38,913 nt of DNA, taken from NCBI GenBank assembly GCA_011391275.1, contig JAABQW010000309.1:1-38913 (forward strand). The letters run 5' to 3'. Positions within the stretch are counted from its first letter, which is position 1. Each line of letters begins with the position of its first letter. The DNA comes from Betaproteobacteria bacterium. GTDB taxonomy: Bacteria > Pseudomonadota > Gammaproteobacteria > Burkholderiales > Usitatibacteraceae. The notes under the pieces were generated by a model. That model was given only the letters and a program-made list of their open reading frames with translations, had not been told where the DNA came from and searched no databases. A program made the translations under genes and the position numbers. This document shows positions 1,672 to 26,354 of the stretch, in pieces.

Positions 1672-3642
<1,971 letters not shown>

Positions 3643-16592: not shown

Positions 16593-16633
16593 TCTAGGTC
16601 CCCTTTTTGAAACCTCCCGAATTACAAGACCTT

Positions 16634-18382
16634 ATGGAACTCAAGCTCCCCCCGCTCGCGGAAACCGGTGAAACCCTGACGGGCGCCGAGATCGCCATCC
16701 GCTGCCTTTCGGAGGAGGGCGTCGAGTTCGTGTTCGGCTACCCGGGGGGCGCGGTCCTCTTCATCTACGACGCCCTCTTCAAGCAGAAGAAGGTGAAGCA
16801 CATCCTCGTCCGGCACGAGCAGGGTGCGCTCCACGCGGCCGACGGCTACGCGCGAGCCACGGGCCGCCCGGGGGTGGCGCTGGTCACCAGCGGACCCGGC
16901 GTGACCAATGCGGTCACCGGCATCGCGACCGCGTACATGGACTCCATCCCGATGGTCGTGATCACGGGCCAGGTGCCCACGCGGGCCATCGGCGAGGACG
17001 CCTTCCAGGAGTGCGACACGGTGGGCATCACCCGCCCGTGCGTGAAGCACAACTTCCTCGTGAAGGACGTGAACGAGCTCGCGGTCACGATCAAGAAGGC
17101 CTTCCACATCGCCACGACGGGCCGGCCCGGCCCGGTGCTGGTCGACATCCCGAAGGACGTCTCCCAGCAGACGGCGCGCTTCCACTACCCCGACAAGGTC
17201 CACCTGCGCTCCTACAGCCCGGTGGTGAAGGGGCACGGCGGCCAGATCAAGAAGGCGATGCAGCTCCTCCTGGATGCGAAGCGGCCGATGATCTACGTGG
17301 GGGGCGGCGCCGTGCTCGGCGAGGCGTCCCAGGAGGTGACGGAGCTGGTGCGCCTGCTCGACTTCCCGTGCACCAACACCCTCATGGGGCTGGGCTCCAT
17401 CCCCGCCTCGGACAAGCGCTTCGTCGGCATGCTGGGAATGCACGGCACCGTCGAGGCCAACATGGCCATGCAGAACTGCGACGTGCTGCTGGCCGTGGGC
17501 GCGCGCTTCGACGACCGCGTCATCGGCAACCCGGCGCACTTCGCCGCGGGAAACCCGAGCCGCAAGATCGTCCACATCGACGTCGACCCCTCCTCGATCT
17601 CCAAGCGGGTGCGCGTCGACGTGCCGATCGTCGGCCACGTGAAGGACGTGCTCACGGAGCTCATCGCGCTGATCAAGGCCGGCAAGGAGAAGCCCGATGC
17701 CGCCGCACTGGCTGCGTGGTGGGCCCAGATCGCCACCTGGCGGGCCAAGGACTGCCTGAAGTACGACCGGGCGTCCCCGATCATCAAGCCGCAGTTCGTG
17801 ATCGAGAAGCTCTGGGAAGTGACCAAGGGCGACGCCTACGTCACCTCCGACGTGGGCCAGCACCAGATGTGGGCCGCCCAGTTCTACCGGTTCGAGAAAC
17901 CCCGGCGCTGGATCAATTCCGGCGGGCTGGGGACGATGGGCGTGGGGCTTCCCTACGCGATGGGCGTGAAACTCGCCTTCCCGGAGGCCGACGTCGCCTG
18001 CGTGACGGGGGAGGCCTCGATCCAGATGTGCATCCAGGAGCTCTCCACCTGCAAGCAGTACCACCTGCCGGTGAAGCTCGTGAACCTCAACAACCGCTAC
18101 ATGGGCATGGTCCGCCAGTGGCAGGAGTTCTTCCACGGCAACCGCTACGCCGAGTCCTACATGGACGCGCTGCCGGACTTCGTGAAGCTCGCCGAGGCCT
18201 ACGGCCACGTCGGGATGAAGGTCGAGAAGCCCGGCGACGTCGAGGGGGCGCTGCGCGAGGCCTTCGCCCTCAAGGACCGCCTCGTGTTCCTCGACATCAT
18301 CACCGACCAGACCGAGAACGTCTTCCCGATGGTGCCCGGCGGCAAGGGCATGTCGGAGATGATCCTCGCCGAGGACCTGTAG
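16634..18382 (+). CDS. ilvB: acetolactate synthase large (catalytic) subunit
   Basis: 582 residues. It condenses pyruvate with pyruvate or 2-oxobutyrate, the first shared step of valine, leucine and isoleucine synthesis, using thiamine diphosphate, Mg2+ and FAD. Features in order: N-terminal PYR domain with VFGYPGGAVL and the catalytic-Glu segment VRHEQGALHAADGYARATG, a central FAD domain (VGARFDDRVIGN), and a C-terminal PP domain with GEASIQMCIQEL and LNNRYMGMVRQW. The ThDP motif has Glu where many enzymes have GDG, a substitution I recall in betaproteobacteria. I chose ATG at 16634; a TTG at 16607 would add nine residues and lies too close to the predicted transcription start. ilvN and ilvC follow. 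Confidence 0.95.
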   Translation: MELKLPPLAETGETLTGAEIAIRCLSEEGVEFVFGYPGGAVLFIYDALFKQKKVKHILVRHEQGALHAADGYARATGRPGVALVTSGPGVTNAVTGIATAYMDSIPMVVITGQVPTRAIGEDAFQECDTVGITRPCVKHNFLVKDVNELAVTIKKAFHIATTGRPGPVLVDIPKDVSQQTARFHYPDKVHLRSYSPVVKGHGGQIKKAMQLLLDAKRPMIYVGGGAVLGEASQEVTELVRLLDFPCTNTLMGLGSIPASDKRFVGMLGMHGTVEANMAMQNCDVLLAVGARFDDRVIGNPAHFAAGNPSRKIVHIDVDPSSISKRVRVDVPIVGHVKDVLTELIALIKAGKEKPDAAALAAWWAQIATWRAKDCLKYDRASPIIKPQFVIEKLWEVTKGDAYVTSDVGQHQMWAAQFYRFEKPRRWINSGGLGTMGVGLPYAMGVKLAFPEADVACVTGEASIQMCIQELSTCKQYHLPVKLVNLNNRYMGMVRQWQEFFHGNRYAESYMDALPDFVKLAEAYGHVGMKVEKPGDVEGALREAFALKDRLVFLDIITDQTENVFPMVPGGKGMSEMILAEDL

Positions 18383-19999
<1,617 letters not shown>

Positions 20000-20080: not shown

Positions 20081-20092
20081 GGAGGCACCTTG
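20081..20092 (+). promoter_or_regulatory. ribosome binding site and TTG start of psd
   Basis: GGAGG (20081-20085) lies 4 bases before TTG (20090-20092). The fit of the site and the family N-terminus select this TTG. Confidence 0.65.
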
Positions 20093-20737
20093 GCGCACTA
20101 TCCGCACCCCATCATCGCCCGCGAAGGGTGGCCCTTCCTGGCGGCATCGGTCGCGGTCGCGGCCGCCGTCACCTGGTTCGGCGGCTGGTGGTCCGCCCCG
20201 TTCTGGATCGTCGCCGCCTTCATCCTGCAGTTCTTCCGCGATCCGCCCCGGGAAATCCCCGAAGGCGAGGGGTTCGTGCTCGCGCCCGCCGACGGCCGCA
20301 TCGTCCAGGTCGGCAACGCCCGCGACGAGTACGCCGGCCGCGACGCGGTGAAGATCAGCGTTTTCATGAACGTCTTCAACGTGCACTCGAACCGCTCGCC
20401 CGTGGAGGGCACGGTCGAGAACGTGTGGTACTTCCCCGGGCTCTTCGTGAACGCGGACCTCGACAAGGCATCGACCGACAACGAGCGCAACGCCATCCAG
20501 CTGCGCATGGCCTCGGGCCTGGACGTCACCGTCGTCCAGGTCGCCGGGCTCATCGCGCGGCGGATCCTCTGCTACGTCGGCCGCGGCGACAAGCTCGCCC
20601 CCGGGCAGCGCTACGGCTTCATCCGCTTCGGCTCGCGGGTCGACGTCTACCTGCCGCCCGGCTCGACGCCGAAGGTCGCGATCGGTGACCGGGTCTCGGC
20701 GACCTCCACGGTCCTGGCCCTCCTGCCGGGGCGCTGA
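20090..20737 (+). CDS. psd: phosphatidylserine decarboxylase proenzyme
   Basis: 215 residues, the short (archaeal-type/PSD-A) form found in many betaproteobacteria. It decarboxylates phosphatidylserine to phosphatidylethanolamine at the inner membrane. An N-terminal pair of hydrophobic segments (about 13-45) is followed by [10 protein letters not shown], then ADGRIVQVG, the segment [16 protein letters not shown] with an essential His, and the self-cleavage site in [12 protein letters not shown], where the Ser after Gly becomes the pyruvoyl cofactor. It starts at TTG. It lies between ilvC and pssA, the next enzyme upstream in the same lipid pathway, so the two consecutive phosphatidylethanolamine steps are co-encoded. 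Confidence 0.95.
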
Positions 20738-20764: not shown

Positions 20765-21931
20765 ATGAACGCCCCCCGGAAGCCGCGCCCCGCGCTGATG
20801 GAGCCGATCCGCCGGCGCGGCATCTACCTGCTGCCCAACCTGTTCACCACGCTCGCCCTTTTCGCGGGCTTCTACGCGGTCGTGCAGGGCATGAACCACG
20901 ACTTCGAGCGCGCTGCCATCGCCATCTTCATCGCGGGGGTGCTCGACGGCCTCGACGGGCGCGTCGCGAGGCTCACCAACACCCAGTCCGCTTTCGGTGC
21001 AGAGTACGACAGCCTCGCCGACATGGTCTCCTTCGGCGCCGCCCCCGCGCTCGTCATGTACGAGTGGGCGCTTCGCGACATGGGGCGCATCGGCTGGATC
21101 GCGGCGTTCGTCTACTGCGTCGGCGCGGCCCTGCGGCTGGCGCGCTTCAACACGCAGCTCTCGGTGGCCGACAAGCGCTGGTTCACCGGGCTGCCGAGCC
21201 CGGCGGCCGCGGCACTCGTGGCGGGCATGATCTGGGTGCTCAACGACTACCAGGTGAAGGGCGGCGAGGTGAAGTGGTTCGCCGCGGCGATCCTCGTCTA
21301 CGCGGGCGTGACGATGGTGTCGAACATCCGCTTCTACAGCGGCAAGGACCTGAACCTGCGCCGGGCAGTGCCGTTCTGGATGACGCTGGTGATCGTGGTC
21401 GCGCTGCTGCTCATCTCGATCGAGCCCTCGCACGTTCTCTGGGGCATCATGGTCGCCTACGGCGTCTCGGGCTACGTGCTCTGGGCCGTGCAGCGCCTGA
21501 GGACCGAGGCCAAGGAGAGGCAGTACCAGCACATCCGCGACGCGATCGACGCCGGCGACGTGACCGCCCTCGCGCGGATGCTCCACTCCACTCCGCCCGA
21601 CACGGTGGTGAACGGGGGAGGCCGCTCGCTCCTCATGGTGGCCATCGAGGAGACGAACCTGCCGGCCGTCGAGCTCCTCCTGGCGCGCGGCGCCCCGGCG
21701 GACCATCGCGACGAGAGCGGCCTGACCGCCCTCGCGCTGGCCGCGCAGATGGGGTTCAAGGAGGCCGTGTCGGTGCTGCTCGCCGCGGGAGCCGACCCCA
21801 ACCTCCGTGACGAGGCCGGCCTCACCGCGATGGACCTGGCCGAGGAGCACGGTTCCCACGACATCGTCGCCGAGCTGCTTCGCGCCGGCGCCAAGTCGGG
21901 CACGGAGATCGGCGACCCGCCGGGCGCTTGA
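20765..21931 (+). CDS. pssA: CDP-diacylglycerol--serine O-phosphatidyltransferase fused to ankyrin repeats
   Basis: 388 residues. The first 250 or so are a normal PssA: several TM helices and the CDP-alcohol phosphatidyltransferase signature starting DGLDGRVAR (Asp61, Asp64) and ending YDSLAD (Asp82, Asp86), the metal and substrate ligands. It makes phosphatidylserine from CDP-diacylglycerol and serine. After the last TM (ILWAV-like, near 240) the frame continues without a break into about 125 residues with three to four ankyrin repeats (RSLLMVAIEETNLPAVELLL, then SGLTALALAAQMGFKEAVSVL, then AGLTAMDLAEEHGSHDIVAEL). Bacterial PssA usually ends near 250. The repeats face the cytoplasm by prediction and may recruit Psd or another protein. 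Confidence 0.9.
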   Translation: MNAPRKPRPALMEPIRRRGIYLLPNLFTTLALFAGFYAVVQGMNHDFERAAIAIFIAGVLDGLDGRVARLTNTQSAFGAEYDSLADMVSFGAAPALVMYEWALRDMGRIGWIAAFVYCVGAALRLARFNTQLSVADKRWFTGLPSPAAAALVAGMIWVLNDYQVKGGEVKWFAAAILVYAGVTMVSNIRFYSGKDLNLRRAVPFWMTLVIVVALLLISIEPSHVLWGIMVAYGVSGYVLWAVQRLRTEAKERQYQHIRDAIDAGDVTALARMLHSTPPDTVVNGGGRSLLMVAIEETNLPAVELLLARGAPADHRDESGLTALALAAQMGFKEAVSVLLAAGADPNLRDEAGLTAMDLAEEHGSHDIVAELLRAGAKSGTEIGDPPGA

Positions 21932-22148: not shown

Positions 22149-23705
22149 ATGCAGGACCAATTGATCATTTTCGACACCACCATGCGCGACGGCGAGCAGA
22201 GCCCGGGCGCTTCGATGACCCGCGAGGAGAAGGTGCGCATCGGCAAGCAGCTCGAGCGCCTGCGCGTGGACGTTATCGAGGCCGGCTTCGCCGCGGCGAG
22301 CCAGGGCGATTTCGAGGCCATCCGCGCGGTCGCCGACGCGGTGAAGGAGTCGACCGTCTGCTCGCTCGCGCGGGCCAACGAGAACGACATCCGCCGCGCG
22401 GGAGAGGCCGTGGCGCCGGCGGCGCGCAAGCGCATCCACACCTTCATCGCGACGAGCCCGATCCACATGAAGCTCAAGCTGCGCATGAGCGAGGAGCAGG
22501 TCCTCGAGGCCGCCGTTCGCGCGGTCAAGCAGGCGCGGCAGTACACGGACGACGTCGAGTTCTCCGCCGAGGACGCCGTCCGCTCCGAGGTCGATTTCCT
22601 GTGCCGCGTCTTCGAGGCGACCATTGCGGCCGGCGCGACCACGATCAACGTCCCCGACACCGTCGGCTACAGCGTGCCGGAACGCTGGGGCTCCCTCTTC
22701 CGTGAGCTGCTCACGCGCATCCCCAACGCCGGCAAGGCGGTCTGGTCCACGCACTGCCACAACGACCTCGGCATGGCCGTGGCCAACTCGCTGGCGGCGG
22801 TGATGAACGGCGCGCGGCAGGTGGAATGCACGATCAACGGCCTGGGCGAGAGGGCGGGCAACGCCTCGCTCGAGGAAATCGTGATGGCGGTGCGGACGCG
22901 CTCGGACGTGTTCGACTGCCGCACGGGCATCGACGCCACGCAGATCGTCCCGACGAGCAAGCTGGTGTCGACCATCACCGGCTACCCGGTCCAGCCCAAC
23001 AAGGCCGTGGTGGGCGCAAACGCGTTCGCGCACGAGTCCGGCATCCACCAGGACGGCGTGCTCAAGCACCGCGAGACCTACGAGATCATGCGTGCCGAGG
23101 ACGTCGGCTGGGGGGCGAACCGCCTGACGCTCGGCAAGCTCTCCGGGCGCAACGCCTTCCGCAGCCGCCTTTCGGAGCTCGGCATCACGCTCGCTTCCGA
23201 GGAGGCGCTCAACGCGGCGTTCGCCAAGTTCAAGGAGCTTGCGGACAAGAAGCGCGAGATCTTCGACGAGGACCTCCAGGCCCTGGTCTCCGACGAGAGC
23301 GTGACGCCCGAGACGGAGCGCTTCAAGCTGGTCTCCCTGGTGGCCCATTCCGAGACGGGGGAGCAGCCGTTCGCGCGCGTGGTGATTGCCGACGGCGGGC
23401 ACGAGGCGCGCGCGGAGGCCCGCGGGGCCGGCCCGGTGGACGCCTCCTTCCAGGCGATCGAGGAGCTGGTCCACAGCGGGACCGAGCTGCTGCTCTACTC
23501 GGTGAACAACATCACGACCGGGACGGACTCCCAGGGGGAGGTGACCGTCCGGCTCTCCAAGGATGGCCGCGTCGTCAACGGCATGGGGGCGGACACCGAC
23601 ATCGTCGTTGCCTCAGCCAAGGCCTACCTGAGCGCCCTCAACAAGATGGGCATCAGCTCGGGCAGGATGAACCCGCAGTACGGCGAGGAGCCCGTCGCGC
23701 CCTGA
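22149..23705 (+). CDS. leuA: 2-isopropylmalate synthase
   Basis: 518 residues, the usual LeuA length. It condenses acetyl-CoA with 2-oxoisovalerate in the first committed step of leucine synthesis. The N-terminal TIM barrel has [15 protein letters not shown] with the metal-binding Asp and catalytic Arg, the metal-ligand motif HCHNDLGMA, and [13 protein letters not shown]. The flexible subdomain contains [13 protein letters not shown]. The C-terminal allosteric domain (about 390-510) binds leucine, with [13 protein letters not shown] and the ending [14 protein letters not shown]. The ribosome site CCCGGAGTG precedes the ATG. The gene is the last of the ilv-psd-pss-leuA block, after a Leu-rich leader peptide. 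Confidence 0.96.

Positions 23706-24447: not shown

Positions 24448-26354
<1,907 letters not shown>

Follow-up and report, generated by a model that had tools for sequence, protein, structure and literature searches.

The closest solved relatives of the enzyme described here are the structures of MjPSS, the phosphatidylserine synthase of M. jannaschii (7b1k, 7b1l, 7b1n and 7pow). This archaeal protein has the same eight-helix fold as the enzyme part of our fusion, but its chain stops at helix 8, without any added cytosolic domain. In the available portion of the structural report (PMC8633023), MjPSS is a dimer with both termini in the cytosol, its lipid (CDP-DAG) channel is lined by helices 5, 7 and 8, opening takes place by a bend of helix 7 towards helix 8, and serine was seen in open forms only. 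Closer in descent, the ordinary type-I PssA of Betaproteobacteria shares with the fusion the catalytic signature, the membrane fold and a gene order with ilvC, often psd, and leuA, but ends at 237 to 298 aa in the open reading frames read and has no ankyrin tail. Ankyrin repeats are classic docking modules. In the window, i.e., the whole stretch of 38,913 nucleotides analyzed, the two are found in a single gene, pssA-ank.

Anatomy and distribution of the fusion

The gene and its surroundings are organized as follows.

16607-18382, ilvB, upstream of ilvC
18462-18953, ilvH, upstream of ilvC
18935-19999, + strand, ilvC, part of the shared betaproteobacterial gene order
20090-20737, + strand, psd, short-form phosphatidylserine decarboxylase of 215 aa (NCBIfam NF003680, 356 bits against a cut-off of 262)
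20765-21931, + strand, pssA-ank, PssA-ankyrin fusion of 388 aa (open frame with an ATG start; Pfam and NCBIfam; full-length relatives in 12 other genomes)
20765-21514, + strand, type-I phosphatidylserine synthase part, residues 1-250 (Pfam, NCBIfam; model residues 14-243 match 7b1k)
20945-21022, + strand, CDP-alcohol phosphatidyltransferase signature, residues 61-86 (signature residues invariant in 51/51 aligned sequences)
21425-21553, + strand, predicted continuous helix, residues 221-263, made up of the last membrane helix and the first helix of repeat 1 (AlphaFold2)
21515-21898, + strand, four ankyrin repeats, about residues 251-378 (Pfam Ank_2; ankyrin and DARPin chains at Z about 19-21)
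21647-21658, + strand, E295-E296-x-N298, conserved helix-A residues of repeat 2, grouped with E328 in repeat 3 and E361 and H362 in repeat 4 (conservation in 13 fusions)
22149-23705, + strand, leuA, downstream end of the shared gene order

A first-pass annotation of this DNA had read a complete CDP-alcohol phosphatidyltransferase, with all the signature aspartates, running in frame into about 125 residues of ankyrin repeats, with psd just upstream. All of this was confirmed. The frame has no internal stop across its 388 codons, the ankyrin part measures about 128 residues in four repeats, and psd lies 27 bp upstream. The Pfam family CDP-OH_P_transf matched residues 22-176 (E 2.3e-21, 77.2 bits against a cut-off of 22), the NCBIfam equivalog for pssA, TIGR00473, was passed with 124 bits against 107, and the best stretch of Ank_2 covered residues 290-377 (E 4.9e-26, 91.5 bits against 27.3). 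The catalytic signature is complete (D61-x2-D64-G65-x2-A68-R69-x8-G78-x3-D82-x3-D86), follows the motif of type-I PssA (D-x2-DG-x2-AR-x8-G-x3-D-x3-D), and its named residues are invariant in the 51 aligned PssA sequences. As for the start of the repeats, most aligned ankyrin structures open at residues 246-254 (at 240 in one case), and among the other bacterial ankyrins of the class and phylum samples those with the earliest start begin at profile positions equivalent to residues 249-257, which places it at about residue 251. Thus, it is nearly certain that pssA-ank is an ordinary type-I PssA with a four-repeat ankyrin domain joined on, and the predicted activity of its enzyme part is the synthesis of phosphatidylserine from CDP-diacylglycerol and serine.

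We searched 28 genomes of the family and found a match to the fusion profile (E <= 1e-20) in 25 of them. The fusion was full length, with a match reaching residue 385 or beyond, in 13, namely all eight of the window's genus (G000-G007) and five of the six of a sister genus, g4 (G010, G012, G014, G018 and G020). These copies are 73 to 98% identical to that of the window (the fusion loci L032-L039 come from the same genomes as G001-G007 and G018 and are not additional cases). Therefore, in these two genera the homologues do not end before the repeats, a possibility that the first-pass annotation had raised against its own reading. The other 12 genomes with a match are untailed (11 in g2 and one in g3), their matches stopping at residues 241-251, although one of them (G021) is a fragment; the 11 PssA proteins read in these two other genera have 258 to 271 aa and no repeats. 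No match at this threshold was found in G016, G025 and G027; in the case of G016, the short psd is missing as well, so its operon contig is probably absent from the assembly. An assembly or frameshift artefact might have been suspected from the draft state of the window's genome (320 contigs), but the fusion recurs in 12 other genomes, including three single-contig ones (G010, G012 and G014), which excludes it and leaves this explanation with practically no probability. The fusion is real, inherited and clade specific.

A full-length profile (best four candidates at most per genome) matched 380 of the 399 genomes of the order sample at E <= 1e-30, and among the matches listed the tail is covered to its end in only seven genomes, all of this family. 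To favor fusions, a profile restricted to residues 190-388 was used on the order, class and phylum samples, which may overlap (best eight candidates at most per genome). Both parts were spanned in the same seven genomes of the order (399 genomes, 33 with any match at E <= 1e-17) and by the window alone in the class (369 genomes, 12 with any match) and in the phylum (398 genomes, 11 with any match); apart from G140 (see below), every other match listed is confined to one of the two, the PssA end or the ankyrin repeats. Several candidates were discarded by inspection. The match in G140 starts in the PssA end and extends to profile position 95 but crosses three stops, that in an Azoarcus MAG (L042, residues 6-344) is interrupted by a stop codon at the end of 266 aa, beyond which comes a response-regulator-like frame, and that of L018 (G060) passes through stops into a leuA-like frame. 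Ten of the listed order matches, chosen for a long open frame or for a match that continued, were followed to the stop codon; the extra length of the long frames is upstream, and a C-terminal tail is absent from all ten. With scoring limited to the top candidates of each genome, the fusion can be called rare beyond the two genera but not proven absent.

The phylogeny of the PssA part alone (51 sequences, residues 14-245) gathered the 13 fusions in one clade (support 100/99) and 11 untailed relatives of the same family in a separate one (100/99). G006 is the first branch among the fusions and the other 12 group together (95/82); the window's genus and the g4 labels are not cleanly separated. 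The simplest reading is a single gain of the tail, kept since. We estimated dN/dS (Nei-Gojobori, own script) for 78 pairs of fusions and obtained medians of 0.17 for the enzyme (residues 14-245) and 0.33 for the tail (250-378), the latter split into 0.37 for the linker and repeat 1 (246-285) and 0.30 for repeats 2-4 (77 of the 78 pairs usable). The tail is under purifying selection and about half as strictly constrained as the enzyme. This twofold difference speaks for the tail being a passenger of little use, kept by chance. However, that explanation is very improbable in view of a dN/dS of 0.33, of ridge sites that are nearly fixed (see below), and of 13 copies, down to 73% identity, with neither truncation nor indel over residues 190-378. 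The PssA-ankyrin profile (E <= 1e-20) gives a single match in each of the 13 fusion genomes, so that, in a search covering type I but not the unrelated E. coli-type PssA, the tailed protein is the sole one detected. A tailed PssA kept clade-wide on the only type-I enzyme found points to a partner touching the PssA step.

We also looked for the origin of the tail. Within the genus, the best other ankyrin matches belong to an ankyrin protein with a DsbA-like part, recognized by eye (G007:C262, 39%; G002:C3, 35%), which was rejected as donor because it is no closer than generic ankyrins. This protein, found at L101:1321-2400 (- strand) and L102:2033-3229 (+ strand), looks secreted, with ankyrin repeats followed by the DsbA-like part (CPYC motif, also by eye), and represents another ankyrin fusion within the window's genus.

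The joint and the helix-A ridge

Structure prediction of the fusion alone, suggested as a check in the first-pass annotation, showed the membrane helix continuing straight into repeat 1. The AlphaFold2 model of the window protein (51-row alignment) had a pLDDT of 84.6 and a pTM of 0.66. The copy of G006 (38-row alignment) gave 89.2 and 0.75, with the helix, here at residues 223-265, equally unbroken, although the alignments behind both models largely overlap and the second is, thus, not independent. The predicted enzyme has the eight-helix PSS fold. Its residues 14-243 superimpose on residues 1-200 of the 7b1k chain (Z 22.9, rmsd 3.2, 192 aligned), the Z with 7pow is 23.3, and Foldseek TM-scores by target are 0.79-0.81 for four MjPSS chains. 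Hence, the tail begins about where MjPSS ends, and its cytosolic location, as first annotated, is supported by both the model and homology. None of the 13 fusions has a gap over residues 190-378, i.e., the joint has no indel.

Ridge, turn and framework classes in repeats 2-4 were set against the ankyrin/DARPin consensus, and entropy was calculated from 11 non-redundant fusions (L003 and L005 left out). The six ridge sites on helix A averaged 0.36 bits, compared with 1.61 at nine turn sites, 0.76 at the 26 other exposed sites and 0.58 at the 52 framework sites; random draws of six non-framework sites were as low as the ridge in 2.7% of cases. Residues 295, 296, 298 and 361 are invariant in the 13 fusions, H362 is kept in 12 and E328 in 11. 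We compared them with 25 other ankyrin loci (21 of the 22 loci of the tail profile, L143-L164, the PssA-only L160 being left out, plus L002, L101, L102 and L107). Glutamate was found in 4/24 at position 295, 4/24 at 296, 3/25 at 328 and 6/25 at 361, and histidine at 362 in 1/25. N298 is common elsewhere too (14/24). This pattern suggests a specific contact through the ridge, which could be with a partner or with the enzyme itself.

The tail is probably a control or recruiting handle. Our tentative preference, a real possibility although short of probable, is that it is a cytosolic candidate partner-binding module that would tune, and perhaps also place, PssA through helix 8. The tail would lie in the cytosol, held rigidly on membrane helix 8; the charged helix-A ridge would bind a conserved partner, most likely a protein; and binding would act via helix 8 on the synthesis of phosphatidylserine and hence of phosphatidylethanolamine. 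Since helix 8 of MjPSS lines the CDP-DAG pocket in the part of PMC8633023 available, a rigid body attached to it could influence the gate. In its most explicit form, which we consider unlikely, the tail would be a lever, with a cytosolic protein on the acidic ridge shifting helix 8 to open or close the CDP-diacylglycerol gate. If true, this would be a direct protein-based switch on phosphatidylethanolamine synthesis.

Several observations weigh against partner binding through helix 8. The continuous helix is a prediction from models that share most of their alignment, one fusion (L014) has three glycines within residues 238-263, dN/dS is twice as high in the tail as in the enzyme, and signs of co-adaptation at the joint are missing from the PssA part. 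The fusion PssA differs from all others at eight sites, and an untailed sister clade used as control likewise has eight of its own. In the fusion, helix 8 holds just one of them (R244) and helix 7 none, whereas in the control three of the eight fall on these two helices. Fusion-specific sites are, thus, no commoner than in the control and rarer on these helices, and co-adaptation at the joint is unsupported. Two others, W139 and T141, belong to the short beta-1 strand, whose counterpart in MjPSS faces the cytosol.

The ridge could also pack on the cytosolic face of its own enzyme or on the second protomer. An acidic ridge resting on the basic cytosolic face of PssA would then be a brace, within the molecule or across the dimer, that only stabilizes the enzyme. 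The rigid, indel-free joint would suit such a role, as would the dimeric state and cytosolic termini given for MjPSS in the accessible part of PMC8633023. However, the sister genera have a PssA without tail, and the missing co-adaptation signal in the PssA part counts against a brace as well, so we regard it as rather unlikely.

Neighbouring genes and the role of the tail

Gene order was compared at 20 of 69 named loci (eight tailed and 12 untailed) and at four family loci. One of them (L032), from a MAG named Lysobacter sp., is a betaproteobacterial locus with 95 to 100% protein identity to the window over ten gene parts, and the name looks wrong. Downstream, a second bactofilin gene (24448-24969 in the window) is located between leuA and purB in 11 of the 13 fusion genomes. 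In G020 it is about 9 kb beyond leuA and cut by the contig end, and it was not found in G006. The only match among the 15 other genomes of the family is in G015. This neighbor bears on pure placing, in which the tail would recruit PssA to a membrane site or envelope machine and leave its activity unchanged. Docking is the classic role of ankyrin repeats, and the second bactofilin just described agrees with it. On the other hand, G006 has the fusion without the second bactofilin, although G015 alone among the untailed or unmatched genomes has one. The bactofilin is therefore not required, and the idea that it is an obligatory partner of the tail is contradicted by this genome. Recruitment without effect on activity seems to us somewhat unlikely.

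The first-pass annotation had proposed that the repeats might dock Psd, the next enzyme of the pathway, or another lipid enzyme, or else regulate PssA. If the tail held the decarboxylase beside PssA, phosphatidylserine would be channeled into phosphatidylethanolamine. A short-form psd is, in fact, directly upstream of pssA in 12 of the 13 fusion genomes. However, a pssA that lacks the tail also has psd as its neighbor at six of the 12 loci examined beyond the family (Robbsia L087, Saezia L093, Nitrosomonas L094 and L097, Parapusillimonas L095 and the gammaproteobacterial MAG L098) and in 9 of the 12 untailed family genomes, where the gene is longer (Pfam match of about 640-660 nt versus about 500 nt in the fusion operons). 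In two of the remaining three (G011 and G023) it has a different location or contig, and the fragment G021 showed none. In the Dechloromonas/Azonexus loci L041, L046 and L059, the order ilvBHC-pssA-leuA is kept with no matching psd. Being so common beside untailed pssA, adjacency is no evidence for docking, nor is the linkage specific to tailed enzymes, one of which is unlinked. This is the case of G006, which has no psd between ilvC (match ending at 3598) and the pssA frame (starting at 3615 in L038) and whose only Psd match is a 286-aa long form, unlinked, on contig C197. As G006 keeps its tail, retention requires neither linkage nor the short Psd, and the ridge of repeats 2-4 is as conserved there as in the other fusions.

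The same genome provides the one observation that favors docking. In the linker and repeat 1, G006 shares 16 of 40 residues with the window, versus 22 to 40 of 40 in the rest, and its PssA part (201/232) is as close to the window as that of G010. Of the unique residues, 14 of 42 are in this stretch in G006, against 23 of 148 for the remaining twelve fusions together (Fisher p 0.015, post hoc and from one lineage); within the tail alone, the ratios are 14:15 and 23:66 (p 0.037, with the same two limits). Lost contact with the short Psd could be the cause of this divergence. Coming from a single lineage and post hoc, it leaves Psd docking standing with a modest probability. The proposal of the first-pass annotation is therefore weakened, and we consider docking quite improbable; regulation of PssA, the other option it had named, fits better.

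It should be noted that the family mixes different kinds of Psd (L186:1486-2355 on the - strand, L185, L178, L179 and L184). Twelve fusion genomes have the short form in the operon, most untailed genomes have the long form next to pssA, and G006 has it unlinked. A further divergent long copy is present in the window's genome and in G001.

To our knowledge, the setting of the balance between phosphatidylethanolamine and acidic lipids at the PssA step is not settled in bacteria. If partner binding is the right reading, the tail could be used as bait for the partner, with the ridge residues E295, E296 and E361 as the obvious control mutant.

Comparison with known systems

A CDP-alcohol phosphatidyltransferase with an added cytosolic domain has a precedent in AfDIPPS, whose extra domain partly covers the substrate pocket, as stated in the available part of PMC8633023. 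There, the addition is N-terminal and is itself an enzyme (IPTC, a nucleotidyl transferase), and the membrane part has six helices, whereas pssA-ank carries its binding repeats at the C-terminus. Both domain families of pssA-ank also appear in polymorphic toxin systems, for which the accessible portion of PMC3482391 names Tox-CDP-alcohol phosphatidyltransferase and Imm-ank. In those systems toxin and immunity domains are separate, and pssA-ank is one gene in an amino-acid/lipid cluster; a toxin/immunity reading was set aside on this gene context. A literature search, with most subscription journals outside its scope, found no report of a PssA-ankyrin fusion protein in the text it reached. Natural ankyrins and DARPins share with the tail the four-repeat stack, but here the stack is carried by a membrane lipid enzyme, and its turn sites are variable while its ridge sites are nearly fixed. 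The enzyme is a known one, and its ankyrin-tailed form, new as far as the literature search extended, is rare in the samples.
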